Positions 54,447 through 64,000 of a stretch of 64,000 nucleotides of DNA are shown here, one piece after another. Position numbers and translations under genes: made by a program. The notes beneath the pieces were generated by a model. The model did no database searches and was not told the origin of the DNA. It worked only from the letters and a program-made list of their open reading frames with translations. Source of the DNA: Planctomycetales bacterium (lineage in GTDB: Bacteria; Planctomycetota; Planctomycetia; Isosphaerales; Isosphaeraceae). Location of the stretch: positions 62,001 through 126,000 of the forward strand of contig DAIDHX010000311.1 in the NCBI GenBank assembly GCA_027451885.1. Direction: 5' to 3'. How positions within the stretch are numbered: the first letter of the stretch is position 1; the number at the start of each line of letters is the position of its first letter.

Positions 54447-55919
54447 ATGATGATGTCGAGCGAGGCGCAGAAGGCGGATTTTGGCCTGGTCGGGCTAGCC
54501 GTCATGGGCGAGAACCTGGTCCTGAATATTGAAAGCCGCGGCTATCGGGTTGCGGTTTACAACCGGACGACGTCGAAGGTCGACGCGTTTCTTGAGGGGC
54601 GTGCGAAGGGCAAGAATATTGTCGGCGCGCATACGCCGGCTGCGCTTGCCGCTGCGCTTGCGAGGCCGCGGAAGGTGATGATCATGGTCCAGGCGGGCGC
54701 GCCTGTGGACAAGGTGATCGAGGAGCTGATTCCGGTTCTGGAGCCGGGAGACGTGATCATCGACGGCGGCAACTCGAATCACGCGGATACCACGCGGCGG
54801 GTGCGGGACCTCACCGCGCGGGGGTTCCACTTCATTGGTGCGGGGGTGTCAGGCGGCGAGGAAGGCGCGCTTAAGGGTCCGTCGATCATGCCCGGCGGTG
54901 ACCAGCGCGCGTGGCCGCTCGTCAAGCCGATCTTCCAGGCCATCGCGGCCAAGGTTGAAGACGGCTCCCCCTGCTGCGACTGGGTCGGCCCCGAGGGATC
55001 GGGCCACTACGTGAAGATGGTGCACAACGGCATCGAATACGGCGATATGCAGCTCATCTGTGAAGCCTACCACATCATGAGCGCGGTCCTGGGGATGGAC
55101 GCACCTTCCATCGGCCAGGTCTTCGCGCGCTGGAACAAGGGCCCGCTCGATAGCTTTCTGATCCAGATCACCAGCGAGGCGCTGGCCTATGTCGATCCCG
55201 AAACCGGCAAGCCGCTGGTGGACTTGATCCTCGACAAGGCCGGGCAAAAAGGAACCGGCAAGTGGACGGTGGAGTCGGCCGGGGACCACGGCATCCCGCT
55301 TACCTTGATCGCCGAGGCCGTCTTCGCGCGTTGCCTTTCTGCTCAGAAGGACGAACGTGTTCATGCCAGCAAGCTGATCGCTGGCCCCGCCAGGCCCCCC
55401 GCGCCGGCGGCAGCCGCGCTGGTTGACGCCCTCGAGCAGGCGCTTTATGCCAGCAAGCTTGTCTCCTACGCCCAGGGATTCGCCCTGCTGGACGCGATGG
55501 CGAAGGCATCTCAGTGGGATATCAACAAGGGCGCTGTGGCGCTCATGTGGCGCGGCGGGTGCATCATCCGGAGCGTGTTCCTGGGCAAGATCAAGGACGC
55601 GTTCGACAAGAACCCGTCTCTCGCCAACCTGCTGCTCGATCCCTACTTCACGGGCGAAATCGAACGCTGCCAGCCTGGTTGGCGCAAGGCCGTGCTCACC
55701 GCCATCGAGAACGGCGTCCCCGCGCCGGCGATGTCGTCCGCCCTCGCCTACTTCGACGGCTACCGGTCTGAACGTCTCCCAGCCAACCTGCTCCAGGCCC
55801 AGCGCGACTACTTTGGCGCCCATAACTACGAACGTGTGGACCACCCACGCGGCACGTTCTTTCACACCAACTGGACGGGGCGCGGCGGCTCGACCGCCTC
55901 ATCAACCTACAACGCCTGA
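54447..55919 (+). CDS. gnd: 6-phosphogluconate dehydrogenase (decarboxylating)
   Basis: This 490-residue protein is Gnd, the NADP-dependent enzyme of the oxidative pentose phosphate pathway making ribulose 5-phosphate and CO2. The N-terminal cofactor motif GLAVMGENLVLNI is followed by IIDGGNSNHADTTRR, GAGVSGGEEGALKGPSIMPGG (signature 2) and the helical domain MVHNGIEYGDMQLICEAY, LDKAGQKGTGKWT (active site). Length is normal (about 470-490). The start is a run of three ATG codons; any may be used. It is a single gene. The C-terminal GRGGSTASSTYNA tail is typical. Confidence 0.98.
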   Translation: MMMSSEAQKADFGLVGLAVMGENLVLNIESRGYRVAVYNRTTSKVDAFLEGRAKGKNIVGAHTPAALAAALARPRKVMIMVQAGAPVDKVIEELIPVLEPGDVIIDGGNSNHADTTRRVRDLTARGFHFIGAGVSGGEEGALKGPSIMPGGDQRAWPLVKPIFQAIAAKVEDGSPCCDWVGPEGSGHYVKMVHNGIEYGDMQLICEAYHIMSAVLGMDAPSIGQVFARWNKGPLDSFLIQITSEALAYVDPETGKPLVDLILDKAGQKGTGKWTVESAGDHGIPLTLIAEAVFARCLSAQKDERVHASKLIAGPARPPAPAAAALVDALEQALYASKLVSYAQGFALLDAMAKASQWDINKGAVALMWRGGCIIRSVFLGKIKDAFDKNPSLANLLLDPYFTGEIERCQPGWRKAVLTAIENGVPAPAMSSALAYFDGYRSERLPANLLQAQRDYFGAHNYERVDHPRGTFFHTNWTGRGGSTASSTYNA

Positions 55920-56211
55920 GTCCCGTCCCTTGCCCCGGATCGAAGCCAGCCGCCCGCGCGTGGATTCCACGCCCGGGTGCTGCTGCGCTCTTGCAAGTAC
56001 GGTACAAACGTGCAATAATAATTGCCGTTCGGATGGCCTGGAAGGATTATGCACCAGTTTGCTTGGATTTTCCTAATATATTACTGGCTAATGGGTTCGG
56101 ATCTGATCCGAGATGCTGGAGTCGATTTTCTGGGGTTCCGGCCGAATACTACTAGTGACAAGATTGTACGTGCATGCGGGCGGTGGCCCGTGTTGGTTGA
56201 GTGGAGGATAG
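55920..56211. other. Intergenic region with AT-rich patch
   Basis: The 292 bases have an unusually AT-rich patch near 56005-56100 within GC-rich surroundings. No gene, tRNA or clear promoter was found there. Confidence 0.4.
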
Positions 56212-57591
56212 GTGTTGGACGGTTTTGGGGGAGGGTTGGCGGTGTCGGAGTCAGCGCCTGGGGGCGGATCACGCAAGGGTCGAGCGAGTTTGCGCTCGGC
56301 CCTGGAGGAGACGGTGGTCCAGGTTCCTGGGTCTCGGAGTCGCTCCGCGCGGGAGGCGCGTGCGACCCGAGGGCTTCTGGGTCGGCGGCTGGGGCAGTAT
56401 CGGGTTGAGTCGGTGCTGGGCAAGGGATCGATGGCGGTGGTCTACCGGGCGCGGCATCTGGGTCTGGGTAGGCCGTGCGCGCTCAAGATCATGGATGCGG
56501 GGTTTGACGAGACGCAGCCTGGTCTGCGGGCGCAATTCTGGGCTGAGGCACGCGCGGCGGCGAATCTTGTGCATCCGCACGTGGTGACGATTCATAATCT
56601 CGGCAGCGCGAGCGGCTGGCACTATATCGAGATGGAGTATGTGCCGGGCGGTCAGACGTTGCGTGAGACGCTGGTGAAGGAAGGGCCGCTCGAGCCCTTC
56701 AAGGGTGCGGAGCTGGCCCGGCAGATTTCGCTGGCGCTCGGGGCCGCGCACGATTCGGGGCTGGTGCACCGCGACATCAAGCCGGCGAATGTGCTGCTCA
56801 CCCCGGATGGCAAGGCAAAGCTTGCCGACTTCGGACTGGTGCGCCGGTTCGAGGATCTGGCGAAGGGTTGCGCACCGCTCGCGGGCACTCCCTCGTTCAT
56901 GGCGCCTGAGCTCTTCAAGGGTACGCCCGCCGGTCCGCTGAGCGACATCTACGCCCTCGGGGTTCTGCTGTTTCACTGCCTTTCCGGCCGGTTACCGTTC
57001 TCAGCGGAGAGCGTGGGCGAGCTGATTCAGCTTCATGTCGCACATCCCGCGCCCGATATTCGGGAGCACGCGGAGATTCCCGATTCGCTTGCCGAGATCG
57101 TGACCCGGGCTCTTGCCAAGTCGCCAGGCGATCGATTTGGCTCCGCGGCGGAGCTGGCGCAGGCCCTTGATGCTGCCCTGCACCGGCCGCGCGATACCGA
57201 GAGTCTGGTGCGCGAGGCTGCGTCGGGGCTCGATTGCTTTATCCAGGGGGCGCGAGATACCTTCCGCGTCATCGTGGCGCTGCCCGGCGATCGGCTCCAG
57301 GAGGTTGTAATCGAGGCGACGGACGAGGGCGCAGACGAGCACCAGCTCAGTGTATTCTCCGTCTGCGGTCCCGCTGACCCCAGCTTCTACGCCAGTGCGC
57401 TTGAGCTCAACAACCAGCTCACCTACGGCAGCATCTCGATTCATAATGTCCTGGGCTCGCCCATGTTCGTCATGTCGCGGAACTTCCCGCTCGATGCCGT
57501 CCGCGCGGAAGATGTGCGGGACGCCATGCTCGAGATCGCCCGCCGCTCAGACCACATTGAGAAACGGCTCACGCGTCTCGACCAGTATTAA
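56212..57591 (+). CDS. Ser/Thr protein kinase with C-terminal YbjN-like domain
   Basis: This 459-residue protein has a disordered Gly/Ser/Arg-rich start, a kinase domain (about 62-330) with VLGKGSMAVVYRARHLG, ALKIMD, HRDIKPANVLL and DFGLVRR (normal DFG), GTPSFMAPELFKG, and a C-terminal domain (about 345-459) that lacks the membrane span typical of neighbours. The C-terminal part (GDRLQEVVIEATDE, QLSVFSVCGP, LNNQLTYGSISIH, EDVRDAMLEIARRSDHIEK) resembles the YbjN / type III chaperone-like fold used in sensing or protein binding. Start: GTG at 56212 with GGAGG 5 bases upstream. Confidence 0.85.
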   Translation: MLDGFGGGLAVSESAPGGGSRKGRASLRSALEETVVQVPGSRSRSAREARATRGLLGRRLGQYRVESVLGKGSMAVVYRARHLGLGRPCALKIMDAGFDETQPGLRAQFWAEARAAANLVHPHVVTIHNLGSASGWHYIEMEYVPGGQTLRETLVKEGPLEPFKGAELARQISLALGAAHDSGLVHRDIKPANVLLTPDGKAKLADFGLVRRFEDLAKGCAPLAGTPSFMAPELFKGTPAGPLSDIYALGVLLFHCLSGRLPFSAESVGELIQLHVAHPAPDIREHAEIPDSLAEIVTRALAKSPGDRFGSAAELAQALDAALHRPRDTESLVREAASGLDCFIQGARDTFRVIVALPGDRLQEVVIEATDEGADEHQLSVFSVCGPADPSFYASALELNNQLTYGSISIHNVLGSPMFVMSRNFPLDAVRAEDVRDAMLEIARRSDHIEKRLTRLDQY

Positions 57592-57670
57592 ACAAGCGCG
57601 GTACTCGCTCGAGCACGCGGGGGTCGCTACGATGACCTGGCACGGGACCGGTTGACTCGGAGCGAAGCGC

Positions 57671-58141
57671 ATGGCGCGTGGAAATCTGGCGTCGAGCAGT
57701 ACAATTCTTGCGCTCGCGATTGGCACGTTCGCGCTCTTCCTGGGACTGCGGCTCTGGTACGAGCGCAAGCGCAGGGTGGCGAGCGAGGCGGACCAGGCGT
57801 TCTTTCGTTTCCAGGATGTGCGGCGGCTGCTGGGTCTGGCGGCGATGGCCGGCGCAGCGATTGGCATCGCCTACGGCGGCCAGGTGGGAGCGCGGGCGGG
57901 CGGGCGGCCGAACCCCGCGTTCGCAATTGCCTGGCTGGCTGTCGGCCTGTGCGTGATTCTGATGCTGGGGTTCGCCATCATCGACTGGATGGCAACCTGG
58001 CGCTTTGAGCGCAGGGCGCGAAGGCGCCTGGTGCGGGAACGGGTTGAAATCCTCCGCGACATCCTGGCCGCGACGCACGGCGCCCAGGGCTCCGCGGGTT
58101 CTGACGACGAGAACCTCGATCCTGATCAAGAAACCCTCTGA
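57671..58141 (+). CDS. Small membrane protein of unknown function
   Basis: This 156-residue protein has three hydrophobic segments (about 12-28, 56-72 and 88-108), an Arg-rich loop and a long acidic C-terminus (GSDDENLDPDQETL). I recognise no family. It follows the kinase gene by 79 bases and precedes the DUF1697 gene by 30 bases on the same strand, so it could be part of a small transcript unit. Codon use fits the core. Confidence 0.72.
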   Translation: MARGNLASSSTILALAIGTFALFLGLRLWYERKRRVASEADQAFFRFQDVRRLLGLAAMAGAAIGIAYGGQVGARAGGRPNPAFAIAWLAVGLCVILMLGFAIIDWMATWRFERRARRRLVRERVEILRDILAATHGAQGSAGSDDENLDPDQETL

Positions 58142-58717: not shown

Positions 58718-59044
58718 ACTTCTCCTGATTGCCGTCCAACTTTTCTTACGGGAGTCGAAACATGGCGCACAATCCTAATTGAAGCCGCCTGGACGCATGA
58801 TGGTTTTCCCGCGGCAACATCCTCCGTCACCCCCCTGTGTATTCGTTGACTTGATGTACACAGCGTCTTAATATTCAATGAGCCGATAAAGAAGCCTGGC
58901 CGGCTTGATCGAATCGCACACCAACCTGGCTCGTCGGCCCTGAGCCTCGCGAACCGATGAGCGTTTCGACCCGCGATCGTTTCCCTTCGCTTGCTCGATC
59001 TCTTTGCCCCTTCGTCTGGCTGTCCTCCCGGAGGATGCGCGACC
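58718..59044. other. Intergenic region before the S55 peptidase operon
   Basis: The 327 bases carry a promoter (see 58846-58874) and no gene. The first 120 bases show nothing I can interpret. Confidence 0.5.
58846..58874 (+). promoter_or_regulatory. Near-consensus sigma70-like promoter of the S55 peptidase operon
   Basis: TTGACT (58846-58851), a 17-base spacer and TAATAT (58869-58874) lie about 170 bases ahead of the peptidase start. This gives a leader of about 165 bases. Confidence 0.65.
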
Positions 59045-60958
59045 ATGATTCACGACTGGATTTCGCCGCGGGCTCGAGTGGTTCTGGGCTTGCTGGTGCT
59101 TTTGGGCTGGGCGGATTCGCCGGCGCGTGGGGGCGATCCGGATCCCAAATCGTACTGGGATGTTTCGCAGATTCGGCCTGGGATGAAGGGGACGGGCCGG
59201 ACGGTGATGGTGGGAACGAAGCTCGAGGAGTTTCAGGCCGAGGTGCTGGGTGTGATGAAGGATGTGAGCCCCGGGCGTGACATGGTGCTCTGCCGGTTGC
59301 ACGGTTGCAATCTCGAGCATGCGGGGATCATTCAGGGGATGAGCGGCAGCCCGATCATGATCGAGGGCAAGCTGCTGGGTGCCGTGGCATTTGCGTGGGA
59401 GTTTGCCAAGGACCCGATCGCCGGGGTGACGCCGTTTTCGCAGATGATCCAGTACGTGCGTTCGAGCGACCGCCGGGTGGCGGCGGAGCGTGGGCTTGAG
59501 AAATCGACGGGGCGGGTGTCGACGGGGCTTGCGCCTGTGTTGCCGGTGATCGACGAGGCGTTTGATCCCCATTTGAAGATCGGGTTGCCGGCGGCGTTTG
59601 ATCCCCCTGCTCCGTTATCTGGGGTGCTGGGGGGGATGCGGCCGATCGCGACGCCGCTTGCGGCGCGGGGGTTCAGCCCGCGTTCGCTCGAGGAGCTTGG
59701 CCGCCGGCTGGAGCCCTTTGGCATGGCGCCTGTCTCGGCGGGAGCCGCGCCCGATCGCGTGGTGCGCGAGGCCGGCGACAGGCCGCTTGTTCCTGGCTCG
59801 CCGCTCTCCATCGCACTTGTGATGGGAGACTTCGACATTTCCGGCATCGGCACCGTGACGCACGTCGAGGGGGATCGCGTCTATGGCTTCGGCCATCCCA
59901 TGCTCGGCCTGGGCGCCTGCGAGCTGCCGATGATGACCGGCTACATTCACACGGTCTATCCCCGTGCCTCGGTGAGCATGAAGCTGGGCTCGCCGCTCAA
60001 GGTGGTGGGAGTGATCGATGCCGACGTCAGCACCAGTGTGTCGGGCCGTGTCGGCCCCAGGCCGGATTTGCTGCCGCTTTCGACCAGGGTAAAGACGGGC
60101 CGGTTCGCGGACACCCGCACCTATCGCGTGCAGATCGTGCGCGAACCGAGACTCCTGCCCACGCTTGTGCTCTCCGTGCTCACCAGCGCGATCGACACCG
60201 AGGGCAATTTGCCCGAGGACTTGACCGCTCGCTTCCGGGCGGTGATCGAGCTTGAAGGGCGTGCGCCGATTGTTCTGGAAGACGTCTACAGCGGTCCTCG
60301 GTTCACGGGTGTGATGGGAGCGGCGGCGATGTTCTCGCCCGTTTCTTCGATCGTGGGGATTCTGACGCGGAACCCGGTCGCTCCGGTGCGGATCAAGTCG
60401 ATCGATTGCGATCTGGCGATCGAGCCGGGCCGAACCGTTGCTCGGATCGAATCGGCCCGGCTGGTCTCAGACGTGGTCGAGCCAGGCGGCAAGCTCCGCG
60501 CCGTGATCACCCTCAAGCCGTACCGGGGCGAGCCGCGGCCGCTTGAGATGGAGCTGCCTGTTCCCGCGGATTATCCCGAGGGACCGTCCGAGGTGATCCT
60601 GAGCGATATCTCGGGATCGATTCGGCGCGAGTTTCACAACGACCCGACCATGCTCGAGCCGCGCGATCTGGACGGGCTTTTCCGGGTGATTCGGCTCCAG
60701 GCGGATGCGGTGCGCACCAGTGTGGTGGCGCGGATTCCCTCGCCGGAGAAGGCGGTTTCGGTGCGTGGGCGGAATCTCACCGAGCTGCCTGGCAGTGTCA
60801 GCGCGGTGTTTAGCTCGAAGCGAGACGCGAGCGCAACGCCGCTCCATCGCGATCTGGTGACAACCACGCGCACCGGCTGGGTGATCGAAGGCTCCCAGAC
60901 GCTCCGGTTCAACGTGGTCAAGGACGCCGGCCTGTCGTTATCGTTGCCTGGGAAGTGA
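59045..60958 (+). CDS. SpoIVB-type (S55) peptidase-domain protein
   Basis: This 637-residue protein has a signal peptide (MIHDWISPRARVVLGLLVLLGW..., cleaved near ARG-G). The N-terminal part (YWDVSQIRPGMKGTGRTVMVG, GIIQGMSGSPIMIEGKLLGAVAFAW) and YGFGHPMLGLGACELPM form the SpoIVB/S55 serine peptidase domain; the Ser is in GMSGSP and a His in GFGHPM. The C-terminal 300 residues are beta-rich and unrecognised. SpoIVB cleaves the SpoIVFA regulator in sporulation; here, in a group that does not sporulate, it is a domain used for another cell-envelope task. ATG 59045 is preceded by GGAGG. The next gene follows after 60 bases. Confidence 0.88.
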   Translation: MIHDWISPRARVVLGLLVLLGWADSPARGGDPDPKSYWDVSQIRPGMKGTGRTVMVGTKLEEFQAEVLGVMKDVSPGRDMVLCRLHGCNLEHAGIIQGMSGSPIMIEGKLLGAVAFAWEFAKDPIAGVTPFSQMIQYVRSSDRRVAAERGLEKSTGRVSTGLAPVLPVIDEAFDPHLKIGLPAAFDPPAPLSGVLGGMRPIATPLAARGFSPRSLEELGRRLEPFGMAPVSAGAAPDRVVREAGDRPLVPGSPLSIALVMGDFDISGIGTVTHVEGDRVYGFGHPMLGLGACELPMMTGYIHTVYPRASVSMKLGSPLKVVGVIDADVSTSVSGRVGPRPDLLPLSTRVKTGRFADTRTYRVQIVREPRLLPTLVLSVLTSAIDTEGNLPEDLTARFRAVIELEGRAPIVLEDVYSGPRFTGVMGAAAMFSPVSSIVGILTRNPVAPVRIKSIDCDLAIEPGRTVARIESARLVSDVVEPGGKLRAVITLKPYRGEPRPLEMELPVPADYPEGPSEVILSDISGSIRREFHNDPTMLEPRDLDGLFRVIRLQADAVRTSVVARIPSPEKAVSVRGRNLTELPGSVSAVFSSKRDASATPLHRDLVTTTRTGWVIEGSQTLRFNVVKDAGLSLSLPGK

Positions 60959-61018
60959 GTTCGCGCGCGATCGTTGCGCGGATGCTTCCGCTTGATCTCG
61001 AAACCCAAGAGTGCCGAC

Positions 61019-63202
61019 ATGAGACGCCGAGCGCGCGCCCGGGCCGTGGATCGTTCATGGAAGTCGAGCCGAACGCTCGGCACCAGCGCCCTGGCGGCAG
61101 CCGTGCTATGCGCGGTTGCAAGTGGCTGGGCGAAGGTGGAAACCTGGCGCCAGGAGGGGCCCACCGGCTTCGCCCGGGCGCACCGCGAGGGCGTGACCCT
61201 GTCGGAGGAAGGCCGGGTTCGGCTCGCCCATCCTGTTGTGCCAACCAGGCCGATCACCGCGGAACGAGTGTGGGATCTGGCGCGCACCGACTCGGGAGCG
61301 ATCTGGGCGGCGACCGGCGACTCGGGCAAGGTTTTCAAGCTCGAGCCCCGGGCTGACGCAAGCTGGACGCCCGCGCTTGAGACGCACGATTCGCAGGTGC
61401 TGGCGCTTGCGCACACCCGGGACGAGCATGTGCTCGCGGGGACGGGACCTGGGGGGCTGATTTTCGATCTGGCCGATCCCAAAACGCCTGGCGTTCGCAT
61501 CGCGCCCAGTGTGAAGTACATCTGGGACCTGGCGGTCGATCGAGGCGGCGACGTCTATGCCGCGACGGGTCCGGAAGGCCAGCTTTGGAAGCGGTCGCAC
61601 AGCGACGGGCGCTGGAGCCTGCTCTATGACTCGAAAATGAGTCACCTGCTCTGTGTCGCGGTTGCGCCCGATGGCGCGATCATCGCGGGGAGCGACCGCG
61701 AAGGTTTGATCTACCGGATCACGGCCGCGGGCTCGGCGACGATTGTCTTCGACGCGCCGCAGTCCGAGGTCCGGTCGCTCGTGTGGGGGGGCGATGGTGC
61801 GCTTTACGCGGGAACGGCCGCGGAGGCGGGCCCAGCCGCCCGGACGTCCCCGTTTCTGTCGTTTGAGCCCTCTGCTGGTGCTACGCTTGTGGGCGCCCGG
61901 GTTGCCGCATCCGGGCGCGTGGTCCGCGCCAGTTACGTCCCGGAGCAGCAAACAAGGCCGCAACCCGGGGCACGCTCGAACGTGCCGGGCGGTTCCGCCG
62001 CGCCAAGACCCGCCTCGCCCGGTGAAAATGCGGTCTATCGCTTCGCGGCCGACCTCGTTCCCCGCGAAGTCTTTCGCGTGAAGGGGATGATCCATGCCAT
62101 GGCCTGGTGCCAGGATCGCCTGCTCGTGGGTGTCGCGCCCGATGGCTCGATCCACGAGATCAGGAACGAGGGTGCTGATGTCACGCTGGCGGTGAAGCTC
62201 GATTCGGCCCAGATCCTGGCGCTGCTGGCAGAGCCTGACGGCAACGTTGTGATTGGAACCGGCGATTCCGCCTCGGTGCGCAGGTTGTCGGCGCGTTATG
62301 AATCCTCGGCCCGGTTGGTTTCGGAGGTGAAGGACGCGCGGCTCAAGAGCCGTTTTGGCGGCGTGCGCTGGGACGCCGTGACACCTCCGGGAACGTCGAT
62401 CTCGGTCCAGTGCCGCTCGGGACCGGTCAGCGAGCCCGACGAGACCTGGTCCCCCTGGTCCGCGGCCCAGACAGACCCTGCCCACGCCGCGGCATCCACG
62501 CCGGCAGGCCGATACTTCCAGTACCGGGCCATCCTGGCGACAGGCGATCCCAGGCAAACTCCGGAGCTCCGCTCGATCTCGCTTGCCTACCGCACCATCA
62601 ACCTCGCCCCTGAAATCGCCCGGCTGGATATCCCCGACCTCACCGCGGGCGATGGAGCCGCGCGGCAGGTGCGCCTGAGCGTGCGCTGGGATGCCTCAGA
62701 TCCGAATGAAGATGATCTCTCTTACGCGCTCAAGGTACGCAAGGACGGCTGGCCAGACTGGATCGCCCTGGGCTCCGAGCCCACTCAGGAAAAGTCCTAC
62801 TCCTGGGATACCACGCCGTTTCCCTCCGGCAAATACCGGCTCAAGTTGATCGCAAGCGATCGGCGCTCGAATAGCCCTGAAGAGACGCTCGCCCGCGAGC
62901 GCGAGAGCGTTCCCTTCGTGGTTGATCATGATCCGCCCGCCGTGACCGCGACCGTCCGCGACGGCAAGGCGTCAATTCTGATCAAGGACCAGCTTGTCAG
63001 GATCGCGAGTGCGGATTATTCCCTGGATGGAGCGACCTGGACGCCGATCTTTCCCGATGATCGGCTGTTCGATGCGCTCGAGGAGCGGGTGACGCTCGAT
63101 CTGAAGGGGCTTAAACCGGGGGTGCATGTGTTGATGGTTCGCGCGGTGGACGCGGCAGGGAACACCGGCTCTGGTGATGTGCTCGTTGAGTCACGGCCAT
63201 GA
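61019..63202 (+). CDS. Large exported beta-propeller protein with C-terminal Ig/FN3-like region
   Basis: This 727-residue protein has a signal peptide (ALAAAVLCAVASGWA), then repeats that suit a beta-propeller of the NHL/PQQ-like type (ERVWDLARTDSGAIWAATGDS, YIWDLAVDRGGDVYAATGPE, SLVWGGDGALYAGTAAE, ILALLAEPDGNVVIGTGDS), and a C-terminal region of FN3/Ig-like domains (PEIARLDIPDLT..., DDLSYALKVRKDGWPDW, YSWDTTPFPSGKYRLKLIASD). The mix suggests a periplasmic or surface scaffold. It lies between the S55 peptidase gene (60 bases upstream) and the pseudopilin gene (overlap ATGA at 63199-63202), so the three probably form one operon. Confidence 0.82.
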   Translation: MRRRARARAVDRSWKSSRTLGTSALAAAVLCAVASGWAKVETWRQEGPTGFARAHREGVTLSEEGRVRLAHPVVPTRPITAERVWDLARTDSGAIWAATGDSGKVFKLEPRADASWTPALETHDSQVLALAHTRDEHVLAGTGPGGLIFDLADPKTPGVRIAPSVKYIWDLAVDRGGDVYAATGPEGQLWKRSHSDGRWSLLYDSKMSHLLCVAVAPDGAIIAGSDREGLIYRITAAGSATIVFDAPQSEVRSLVWGGDGALYAGTAAEAGPAARTSPFLSFEPSAGATLVGARVAASGRVVRASYVPEQQTRPQPGARSNVPGGSAAPRPASPGENAVYRFAADLVPREVFRVKGMIHAMAWCQDRLLVGVAPDGSIHEIRNEGADVTLAVKLDSAQILALLAEPDGNVVIGTGDSASVRRLSARYESSARLVSEVKDARLKSRFGGVRWDAVTPPGTSISVQCRSGPVSEPDETWSPWSAAQTDPAHAAASTPAGRYFQYRAILATGDPRQTPELRSISLAYRTINLAPEIARLDIPDLTAGDGAARQVRLSVRWDASDPNEDDLSYALKVRKDGWPDWIALGSEPTQEKSYSWDTTPFPSGKYRLKLIASDRRSNSPEETLARERESVPFVVDHDPPAVTATVRDGKASILIKDQLVRIASADYSLDGATWTPIFPDDRLFDALEERVTLDLKGLKPGVHVLMVRAVDAAGNTGSGDVLVESRP

Positions 63203-64000
63203 TCGCGTTGCGAGCGCGCGTCGCGCGGCGGCCGGGTGCATTCAAGGTGATCGACGCGGTCGTGATCGCGGTCCTTGTCAGCGTGGCGGGGCTGATTGCG
63301 CTCATGGCTTTGCCGCGCGCGCGCGAACACGCGCGAACCGCGTCCTGCCAGAAGAACCTGGGGCAGATCGGTCTTGGCCTTGCGCTCTTTGACGAGCTCA
63401 CCGGCAAGCTGCCTTCGATCGATTTCCCCCCTGCCGTGGACGCGAAGGCCGAATCAGCGTCCCGCGCGCCGGTCGCGCAGCTTCTGGATTTGCTCAAATT
63501 GCCGGATCTGACTGGCCTGCAGGAGAACGGTCCGCGGCCACAGCCCGGTGGCGCGACCCCGCCTGGCGAGCAGGTGATGCCAGGTCTGGTTTGCCCGAGC
63601 GACCGCGCTGGGATCGAGGCACACCACCTGGGCCCAAACAGCTACCGCGCGTGCGTGGGCTCGGATCCAGAAGGGACGAACGGCGTGTTCGCGTTTCGCC
63701 GCACGCGGAAACTTCGGACGATCCAGGAGTCGGACGGGGTAAGTTACAAGATCGCCTTCGCCGAGCGGCTGCTGGGGGATGGCAGCCAGACCGACTCGCC
63801 GGCCAATTACGAGCTTGTGGGGGACGACGCCGCGGCAGCGCCCGCGCCCTCGGAAGCAAACGCGCGCATCAGGGGCGATGCCGGCGGGCGCTGGTCAATC
63901 GCCGACTATCGCTACACGCTCTATAACCATGCGATCACGCCCGACGCCGCACATTCCTGGGTCGCCTCAAGCGGGCGCAAGGCGAGCTTGAGTGCATCGA
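63199..64000 (+). CDS. DUF1559-type pseudopilin, 3' end cut by window
   Basis: The reading frame from 63199 runs to the window end with at least 267 codons. After a basic N-terminus comes GAFKVIDAVVIAVLVSVAGLIALMAL, a hydrophobic helix, then RAREHARTASCQKNLGQIGLGLALFDELTG, the conserved segment of planctomycete DUF1559 proteins (usual form: SRxxCxNNLKQIGLAxHNY). The prepilin-peptidase site G-F-T-L-I-E is altered to G-A-F-K-V-I-D, with Asp where Glu is usual. The start codon overlaps the TGA of the propeller gene (ATGA), so translation is coupled. The C-terminal DUF1559 part lies beyond the window. Confidence 0.87.
   Translation, partial: MIALRARVARRPGAFKVIDAVVIAVLVSVAGLIALMALPRAREHARTASCQKNLGQIGLGLALFDELTGKLPSIDFPPAVDAKAESASRAPVAQLLDLLKLPDLTGLQENGPRPQPGGATPPGEQVMPGLVCPSDRAGIEAHHLGPNSYRACVGSDPEGTNGVFAFRRTRKLRTIQESDGVSYKIAFAERLLGDGSQTDSPANYELVGDDAAAAPAPSEANARIRGDAGGRWSIADYRYTLYNHAITPDAAHSWVASSGRKASLSAS

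Follow-up and report, generated by a model that had tools for sequence, protein, structure and literature searches.

What kind of system is encoded by the operon at the end of this stretch of planctomycete DNA? In the 64,000-nucleotide window analyzed here (Planctomycetales bacterium, Isosphaeraceae; assembly GCA_027451885.1, contig DAIDHX010000311.1, positions 62,001 to 126,000 of the forward strand), a first-pass annotation made from the sequence alone had read three genes behind one promoter as a SpoIVB-type (S55) peptidase, a large exported beta-propeller protein and an atypical pseudopilin, and had proposed that they form a unit for envelope assembly or secretion. Judged by sequence comparison, the stable unit is the pair of peptidase and propeller. 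The peptidase is very probably an S55-like serine protease that has undergone circular permutation, its two halves being swapped relative to SpoIVB of Bacillus subtilis, and we consider a functional link between the two proteins highly likely. The pair would probably represent a permuted S55-like protease and the exported propeller that constantly accompanies it. In agreement with the first-pass annotation, no named system was found for the pair, and searches of open-licence PMC papers turned up no description of either a permuted S55 enzyme or a peptidase-propeller pair.

Assignment of the first gene to the SpoIVB type stands as far as the S55 family is concerned and fails at the level of SpoIVB itself. 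Peptidase_S55 (PF05580) matches at 43.6 bits (cut-off, 25), with residues 53-129 aligned to positions 127-203 of a model of 210, and these residues are the only ones matched by Pfam and NCBIfam, in each case against the C-terminal end of the S55 models. The SpoIVB equivalog (TIGR02860) is not reached, at 34.7 bits against a cut-off of 305.25. A phmmer comparison likewise aligns the N-terminal stretch with the SpoIVB residues that bear the catalytic serine. Both half-domains are shared with SpoIVB (PDB 9LNF), the serine lying in GMSGSP and the histidine in LGH or FGH, but their order is reversed. In the peptidase the serine half (GMSGSP, S100) precedes the histidine half (FGHP, H284), whose motif lies 184 residues C-terminal of the serine, and a long beta-rich C-terminal part follows; the report of the SpoIVB structure describes the histidine half ahead of the serine half (PMC12502668). 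Half-by-half alignment with hhalign, using profiles built from 74 members of the permuted family and from 4 SpoIVB sequences, paired the serine halves (probability, 98.9; score, 96.7) and the histidine halves (probability, 92.1; score, 40.8; P = 6.4e-7, with a maximum of 21.2 over 200 column shuffles), placing H284 on SpoIVB His236, while the same profiles in cross pairs of serine half and histidine half gave nothing convincing. Because each half aligns with its SpoIVB counterpart and not with the other half, a circular permutation is the likely explanation. When the SpoIVB halves were swapped in a script, a single collinear alignment of 240 columns resulted (score, 133.4); with the native order the alignment covered 62 columns and scored 106.3. 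The middle region of the peptidase falls inside the alignment with the swapped SpoIVB. Residual duplication as an origin of the permutation was considered and dropped: a serine-half-like stretch at residues 356-365, after the histidine half, spans 10 columns with P = 0.05.

Several observations weigh against this interpretation. The exact border of the swap is undefined: among 100 random swap points (median, 106.7) the best reached 124.0, with cuts near residues 153-159, which score high because such cuts also place the serine half first. Once the PDZ domain was removed from the swapped SpoIVB, local alignment recovered the serine half only (105.9, 62 columns), and 194 columns were aligned in global mode. 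Searched as a small profile against PDB sequences with hmmsearch, the histidine half found no match, and small profiles against one SpoIVB sequence in hhalign aligned the serine half at best and the histidine half not at all. The histidine-half match therefore depends on profile depth, since smaller profiles missed it and larger ones on both sides showed it; Pfam scans with the isolated half also returned no match. The middle region alone gave no hhalign match to the SpoIVB PDZ domain, so that this regulatory domain may be missing from the peptidase or unrecognizable in it. Table 1 of PMC6411480 names no PDZ-SpoIVB proteins for either Planctomycetes or Acidobacteria. Finally, the fold searches matched the serine barrel only; the VIA-align rows span just residues 34-146 and are thus silent on the histidine barrel.

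Structural modeling (AlphaFold2; predicted local distance difference test [pLDDT], 80.2) gave six strands in the serine half, eight in the histidine-half region and a PA-clan serine barrel at residues 35-146. Of the two-barrel features of that clan, the serine barrel comes from fold search and the histidine barrel from sequence alone. VIA-align matched the serine barrel to HtrA/DegS-type proteases with Z scores of up to 8.3 (5ilb, 101 residues aligned, 2.8 Å; about 92-109 aligned across matches) and to the serine barrel of SpoIVB (9lnf) with Z = 6.1 (109 aligned, 3.8 Å). Foldseek gave the comparison with 9lnf a probability of 1.00; against the PDB it returned nothing at E <0.001, the top of the list being taken up by small, unrelated beta proteins of low probability and large root mean square deviation, and a viral structure library yielded no match below 0.001. 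HtrA and DegS are exported proteases of the same fold class, but the peptidase differs from them in its permuted order, in a sequence nearer to S55 and in the lack of a PDZ match. No SpoIVB relatives were found in viral contigs, and the window peptidase had no match in plasmid records.

Conservation of the presumed active site suggests that the permuted enzyme works. Duplicate removal by sequence left 79 distinct S55 loci, to which the window peptidase adds an 80th sequence row; S100, H284 and D327 are invariant in all 80 sequences, D262 is kept in 79, and the family retains the SGSP motif in full. Asp327 lies 43 residues after His284. In chymotrypsin the corresponding spacing from histidine to aspartate is 45 residues, and because of this near agreement Asp327 is the most likely candidate for the third catalytic residue of the predicted triad. 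In SpoIVB, the structure paper describes the former candidate Asp363 as displaced by about 24 Å and proposes Thr393 instead (PMC12502668). Counted by position from Ser378, the place of Thr393 is taken by Ala115 in the window peptidase and by alanine in 70 of the 80 sequences, which is a further point against an S55-like active enzyme. It would suit a pseudo-protease or structural protein that has kept the fold, in a pair serving as a surface or envelope scaffold, as would the large beta-rich tail and the fact that activity is predicted only. An intact SGSP motif, and a serine and a histidine (Ser100, His284) that all 80 sequences have kept through a long period of evolution, would be unusual in a dead enzyme, however, and we consider a scaffold of this kind improbable. 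We infer that the peptidase is catalytically active.

The case for the pair rests on its distribution. Of the 79 loci, 72 include a propeller gene within the sequence fetched, in every case on the strand of the peptidase gene; in 67 it is within 500 bases, and nine pairs overlap by 4 bases. The first-pass annotation had named scattered locations of the three gene families as the outcome that would speak against it; for the pair such scattering is refuted by these 72 loci, and the DUF1559 gene, its pseudopilin, proved not constant. In a sample of relatives (40 genomes: Isosphaeraceae and three of family f4), the propeller was found in 27/27 S55-positive genomes and not found in 11 of the 13 S55-negative ones. 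For the phylum and class samples, 40 positive and 50 negative genomes were chosen by hand among those with and without an S55 match, the positives serving as a control for the same profile; the propeller profile matched 39 of the 40 and none of the 50. The peptidase itself occurs in 92 of 392 genomes of the phylum sample, from which the loci of 40 matching genomes, picked down the score list, were fetched. The pair extends across Planctomycetota and is also present in Acidobacteriota, where its genes lie about 1.2 kb apart in Edaphobacter modestus (L125, with an alcohol-dehydrogenase-like gene between them) and in strain KBS 146 (L126). Other named carriers are Singulisphaera acidiphila, Aquisphaera insulae and Paludisphaera soli. 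S55 peptidases have been reported as widely detected in acidobacteria (PMC8841776).

Against a strict pairing stand six of the 79 loci that have no propeller nearby (one more is interrupted by a contig end). Four of these are split, with the propeller elsewhere in the genome (G014, G021, G113, G216); in G355 a second peptidase copy adjoins a propeller on another contig; and the sixth, L116, comes from a genome outside the propeller search. G237 has the protease and no propeller match. Among S55-negative relatives, G019 has a strong propeller match, and thus a propeller without the protease, and G027 has a weak and partial one. The pairwise distances computed for peptidase and propeller correlate closely (r = 0.92 over 67 pairs; 40/64 splits shared; maximum of 0.18 under label permutation), which is expected from joint inheritance and to which shared species history contributes. 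It could then be argued that the neighbors are functionally unlinked and that adjacency is inherited synteny, as gnd and the Ser/Thr kinase and HAD genes are also syntenic in Isosphaeraceae. We regard this as very improbable: the pair persists amid flanking genes unrelated to the window neighbors in four distant loci (L118, L124, L125, L127), and genomes nearly always have both genes or neither, even where the two are split. No third constant member was found among the flanking genes scanned in the four distant loci. Two of these, both from uncultured bacteria, hold short divergent pairs, preceded in one (L127:8953-12371) by a nitroreductase and a frame resembling a signal peptidase and in the other (L124:3163-6912) by a ThiN frame.

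For the second gene, the earlier description as a large propeller was borne out, and its export is probable. The 727-residue protein matches Reg_prop at 26.8 bits (cut-off, 20.4), and its AlphaFold2 model (pLDDT, 85.7) shows a seven-bladed propeller, matched by VIA-align to 5yzv (Z = 33.8, 273 aligned, 2.1 Å) and to virginiamycin B lyase 2z2o (Z = 33.6, 289 aligned, 2.4 Å), among many matches of similar strength; the lyase also has seven blades, a likeness of fold. Foldseek matches include 4a2m and 3ott. A Reg_prop propeller followed by beta-sandwich-like domains is also the arrangement of the Bacteroides hybrid two-component sensors BT4663 and BT4673, from which the present protein differs in being a separate, exported protein with a single seven-bladed propeller; a Pfam scan found no kinase or receiver domain in it. 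By a simple hydropathy test, 62 of 67 peptidases and 65 of 67 propellers have a hydrophobic N-terminus (in the window peptidase, an export signal with an h-region Kyte-Doolittle value of 2.6), and because nearly all members share this feature both proteins are probably exported.

What an exported propeller would do for the protease can be read in two ways. SpoIVB cleaves a partner to trigger signaling. By analogy, the propeller could be a substrate or zymogen-like ward that is clipped or released by the permuted S55 enzyme rather than guiding it, a reading that agrees with the shared operon and compartment, with the one-to-one pairing and with the resemblance of the propeller (Reg_prop; 4a2m, 3ott) to the periplasmic sensors of hybrid two-component systems, although here it forms a separate protein. 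The propeller region is compact and confidently modeled, with a single low-confidence stretch at residues 273-326, and we hold a substrate role to be unlikely, if well worth considering. The alternative that we favor, a propeller acting as substrate receptor or regulator of the protease, is taken up below.

The third gene has a weaker claim to membership. It belongs to DUF1559/SBP_bac_10 (81.1 bits; cut-off, 23.3), and the H-X9-DG model scores 12.3, under its cut-off of 19. Pilin-like N-terminal motifs carry a glutamate, E5; by eye, the N-terminus of the third protein (GAFKVIDAVVIAVLVSVAGLIAL) resembles that of a pilin, D standing where E5 is expected. If the pseudopilin worked together with peptidase and propeller in envelope assembly or secretion, as first proposed, the ATGA overlap in the window (ATG at 63199 over the propeller TGA at 63200-63202), the spacing of 0-4 bases seen in several relatives and the retention of the gene in 15 of the 20 Isosphaeraceae loci that leave space for it would be readily understood; this count includes the window locus and L073, where the space is just 1.4 kb, and omits L094, a near copy of L065. 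However, it is missing directly after the pair in five loci within the family (L064, L073, L074, L075, L081), and in none of the fetched loci outside Isosphaeraceae does it directly follow the pair; there, distant weak DUF1559 matches occur in L157 and L164 and a weak upstream one in L121. The window genome also holds 72 DUF1559-matched stretches, a large paralogous family; for Planctopirus limnophila, 68 paralogues, two of them essential, have been described (PMC10632474). Because its place directly behind the pair is confined, among the fetched loci, to Isosphaeraceae and because it has so many paralogous stretches genome-wide, we interpret the gene as a family-level addition and reject the pseudopilin as a core member. 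Of the three-gene unit, the pair is therefore conserved and the pseudopilin is not, and since no finding speaks for envelope assembly or secretion in particular, such a unit seems to us hardly probable. A HAD-like hydrolase gene follows in 14 of the 20 Isosphaeraceae loci, that of the window again included.

The operon genes look co-transcribed, which agrees with the first-pass reading of one operon, and the promoter, the 60-base gap and the ATGA overlap lie where they had been placed. A consensus scan over 7 kb found a single promoter site, in two registers, where shuffling predicts 0.5 +/- 0.6; alone this is weak evidence, and it is conservation that makes the case strong. In three congeners the promoter block GTATTCGTTGACT is identical while the flanking sequence has diverged, and of 26 loci compared, 24 have TTGAC-N18-TANNNT (17-base spacer) ahead of the S55 gene, the two without it (L083 and L084) both belonging to family f4. 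Such sites number only 1-2 on that strand in 5-20 kb, and the one upstream of the S55 gene is usually the sole one in its locus. Because of the conserved island in the congeners and these counterparts elsewhere, the site goes beyond chance. The spacer carries a conserved ATG (window 58854-58856), not expected for a plain sigma-70 promoter; among 23 tabulated sites, A (spacer position 3) is present in 23, T in 19 and G in 20. The 6.18-Mb genome contains two copies of the extended pattern TTGACNNNATGN12TANNAT (reversed control, 0); the copy outside the operon (G000:C182:586-614; L171) precedes two frames that by eye are helix-turn-helix-like, this one short, and integrase-like. Because there are only these two sites, the second ahead of such frames, no promoter-sharing regulon is inferred.

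Coordinates of the operon and its parts are collected in the table below. The third gene extends 128 bases beyond the window (full span, L002:7199-8128; 309 residues), and farther downstream a very long subtilase-like frame (L002:9297-14189; >1631 residues, by eye) shares synteny with the operon in Isosphaeraceae. The block ahead of the operon (window 54447-58141) comprises gnd, the gene of a Ser/Thr kinase (56212-57591) and a small frame resembling a membrane protein (57671-58141), and in many Isosphaeraceae it is syntenic.

Features of the peptidase-propeller operon (window positions unless marked L002)
Feature	Position	Strand	Details
Promoter TTGACT-17-TAATAT	58846-58874	+	TTGACT 58846-58851, 17-base spacer, TAATAT 58869-58874
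S55-type peptidase gene	59045-60958	+	637 residues; longest frame opens earlier, at TTG 58991
Peptidase, serine half (residues 36-146)	59150-59482	+	GMSGSP, Ser100 codon 59342-59344; hhalign and VIA-align
Peptidase, low-confidence linker (about residues 150-198)	59492-59638	+	pLDDT <50 at 152-198; length varies among relatives (alignment gaps)
Peptidase, histidine half (residues 247-345), GIGTVTHVEGDRVYGFGHP	59783-60079	+	His284 codon 59894-59896; Asp327 codon 60023-60025
Peptidase, C-terminal beta-rich region	60080-60955	+	Secondary structure of model; no Pfam match
Propeller gene	61019-63202	+	727 residues; 60-base gap after peptidase gene
Seven-bladed propeller (about residues 63-434)	61205-62320	+	VIA-align of predicted model
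C-terminal beta-sandwich-like region (about residues 438-725)	62330-63193	+	Weak Y_Y_Y and Big_13 below cut-off; model strands
DUF1559 (SBP_bac_10) pseudopilin-like gene	63199-64000 (window end)	+	PF07596; ATG at 63199
HAD-like hydrolase gene	L002:8150-8785		Beyond window, 21 bases after DUF1559 gene; Pfam Hydrolase, 58.9 bits

We propose that the pair operates as an exported PA-clan-type permuted protease with a dedicated propeller as its substrate receptor or regulator, a full mechanism for which we see the chances of being right and wrong as evenly balanced. The permuted order, the invariant serine, histidine and aspartate, the co-occurrence, the adjacency and the conserved promoter are all seen directly in the compared genomes; from them we infer that the propeller contacts the peptidase and that it has a role as receptor, regulator or substrate. 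The chain of the protease would run from the serine barrel through a flexible linker to the histidine barrel and the beta-rich tail, and the two barrels would pack as in SpoIVB, bringing Ser100 to His284, with Asp327 probably completing the triad. The propeller, translated from the same mRNA and exported, would act on the protease outside the cytoplasm as substrate receptor or regulator. In Isosphaeraceae the DUF1559 protein and the HAD-like hydrolase would have joined the operon. The peptidase would also differ from SpoIVB in having a propeller as its partner. Protease-adaptor pairs such as CtpA-LbcA and Prc-NlpI embody a similar idea, in which a protease of the envelope is served by a protein of its own that is not a protease; they differ in protease fold and in adaptor, and the parallel is one of analogy only.

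The label "SpoIVB peptidase S55" masks both the swapped order and the constant partner, because the S55 models match only half the length. If the enzyme is active, then the chymotrypsin-type fold tolerates natural circular permutation, and the family may offer a second view on the third catalytic residue of SpoIVB, which the structure paper leaves unsettled (PMC12502668). An active enzyme would also make the pair a defined two-gene target for genetics in the named carrier species. Tentatively, and with more doubt than confidence, we suggest that this is a natural permuted chymotrypsin-fold family with a full Ser-His-Asp site (D327) that SpoIVB seems to lack and an obligatory exported propeller, which together could form a trans-phylum two-component device for proteolytic signaling or quality control outside the cytoplasm in Planctomycetota and Acidobacteriota.

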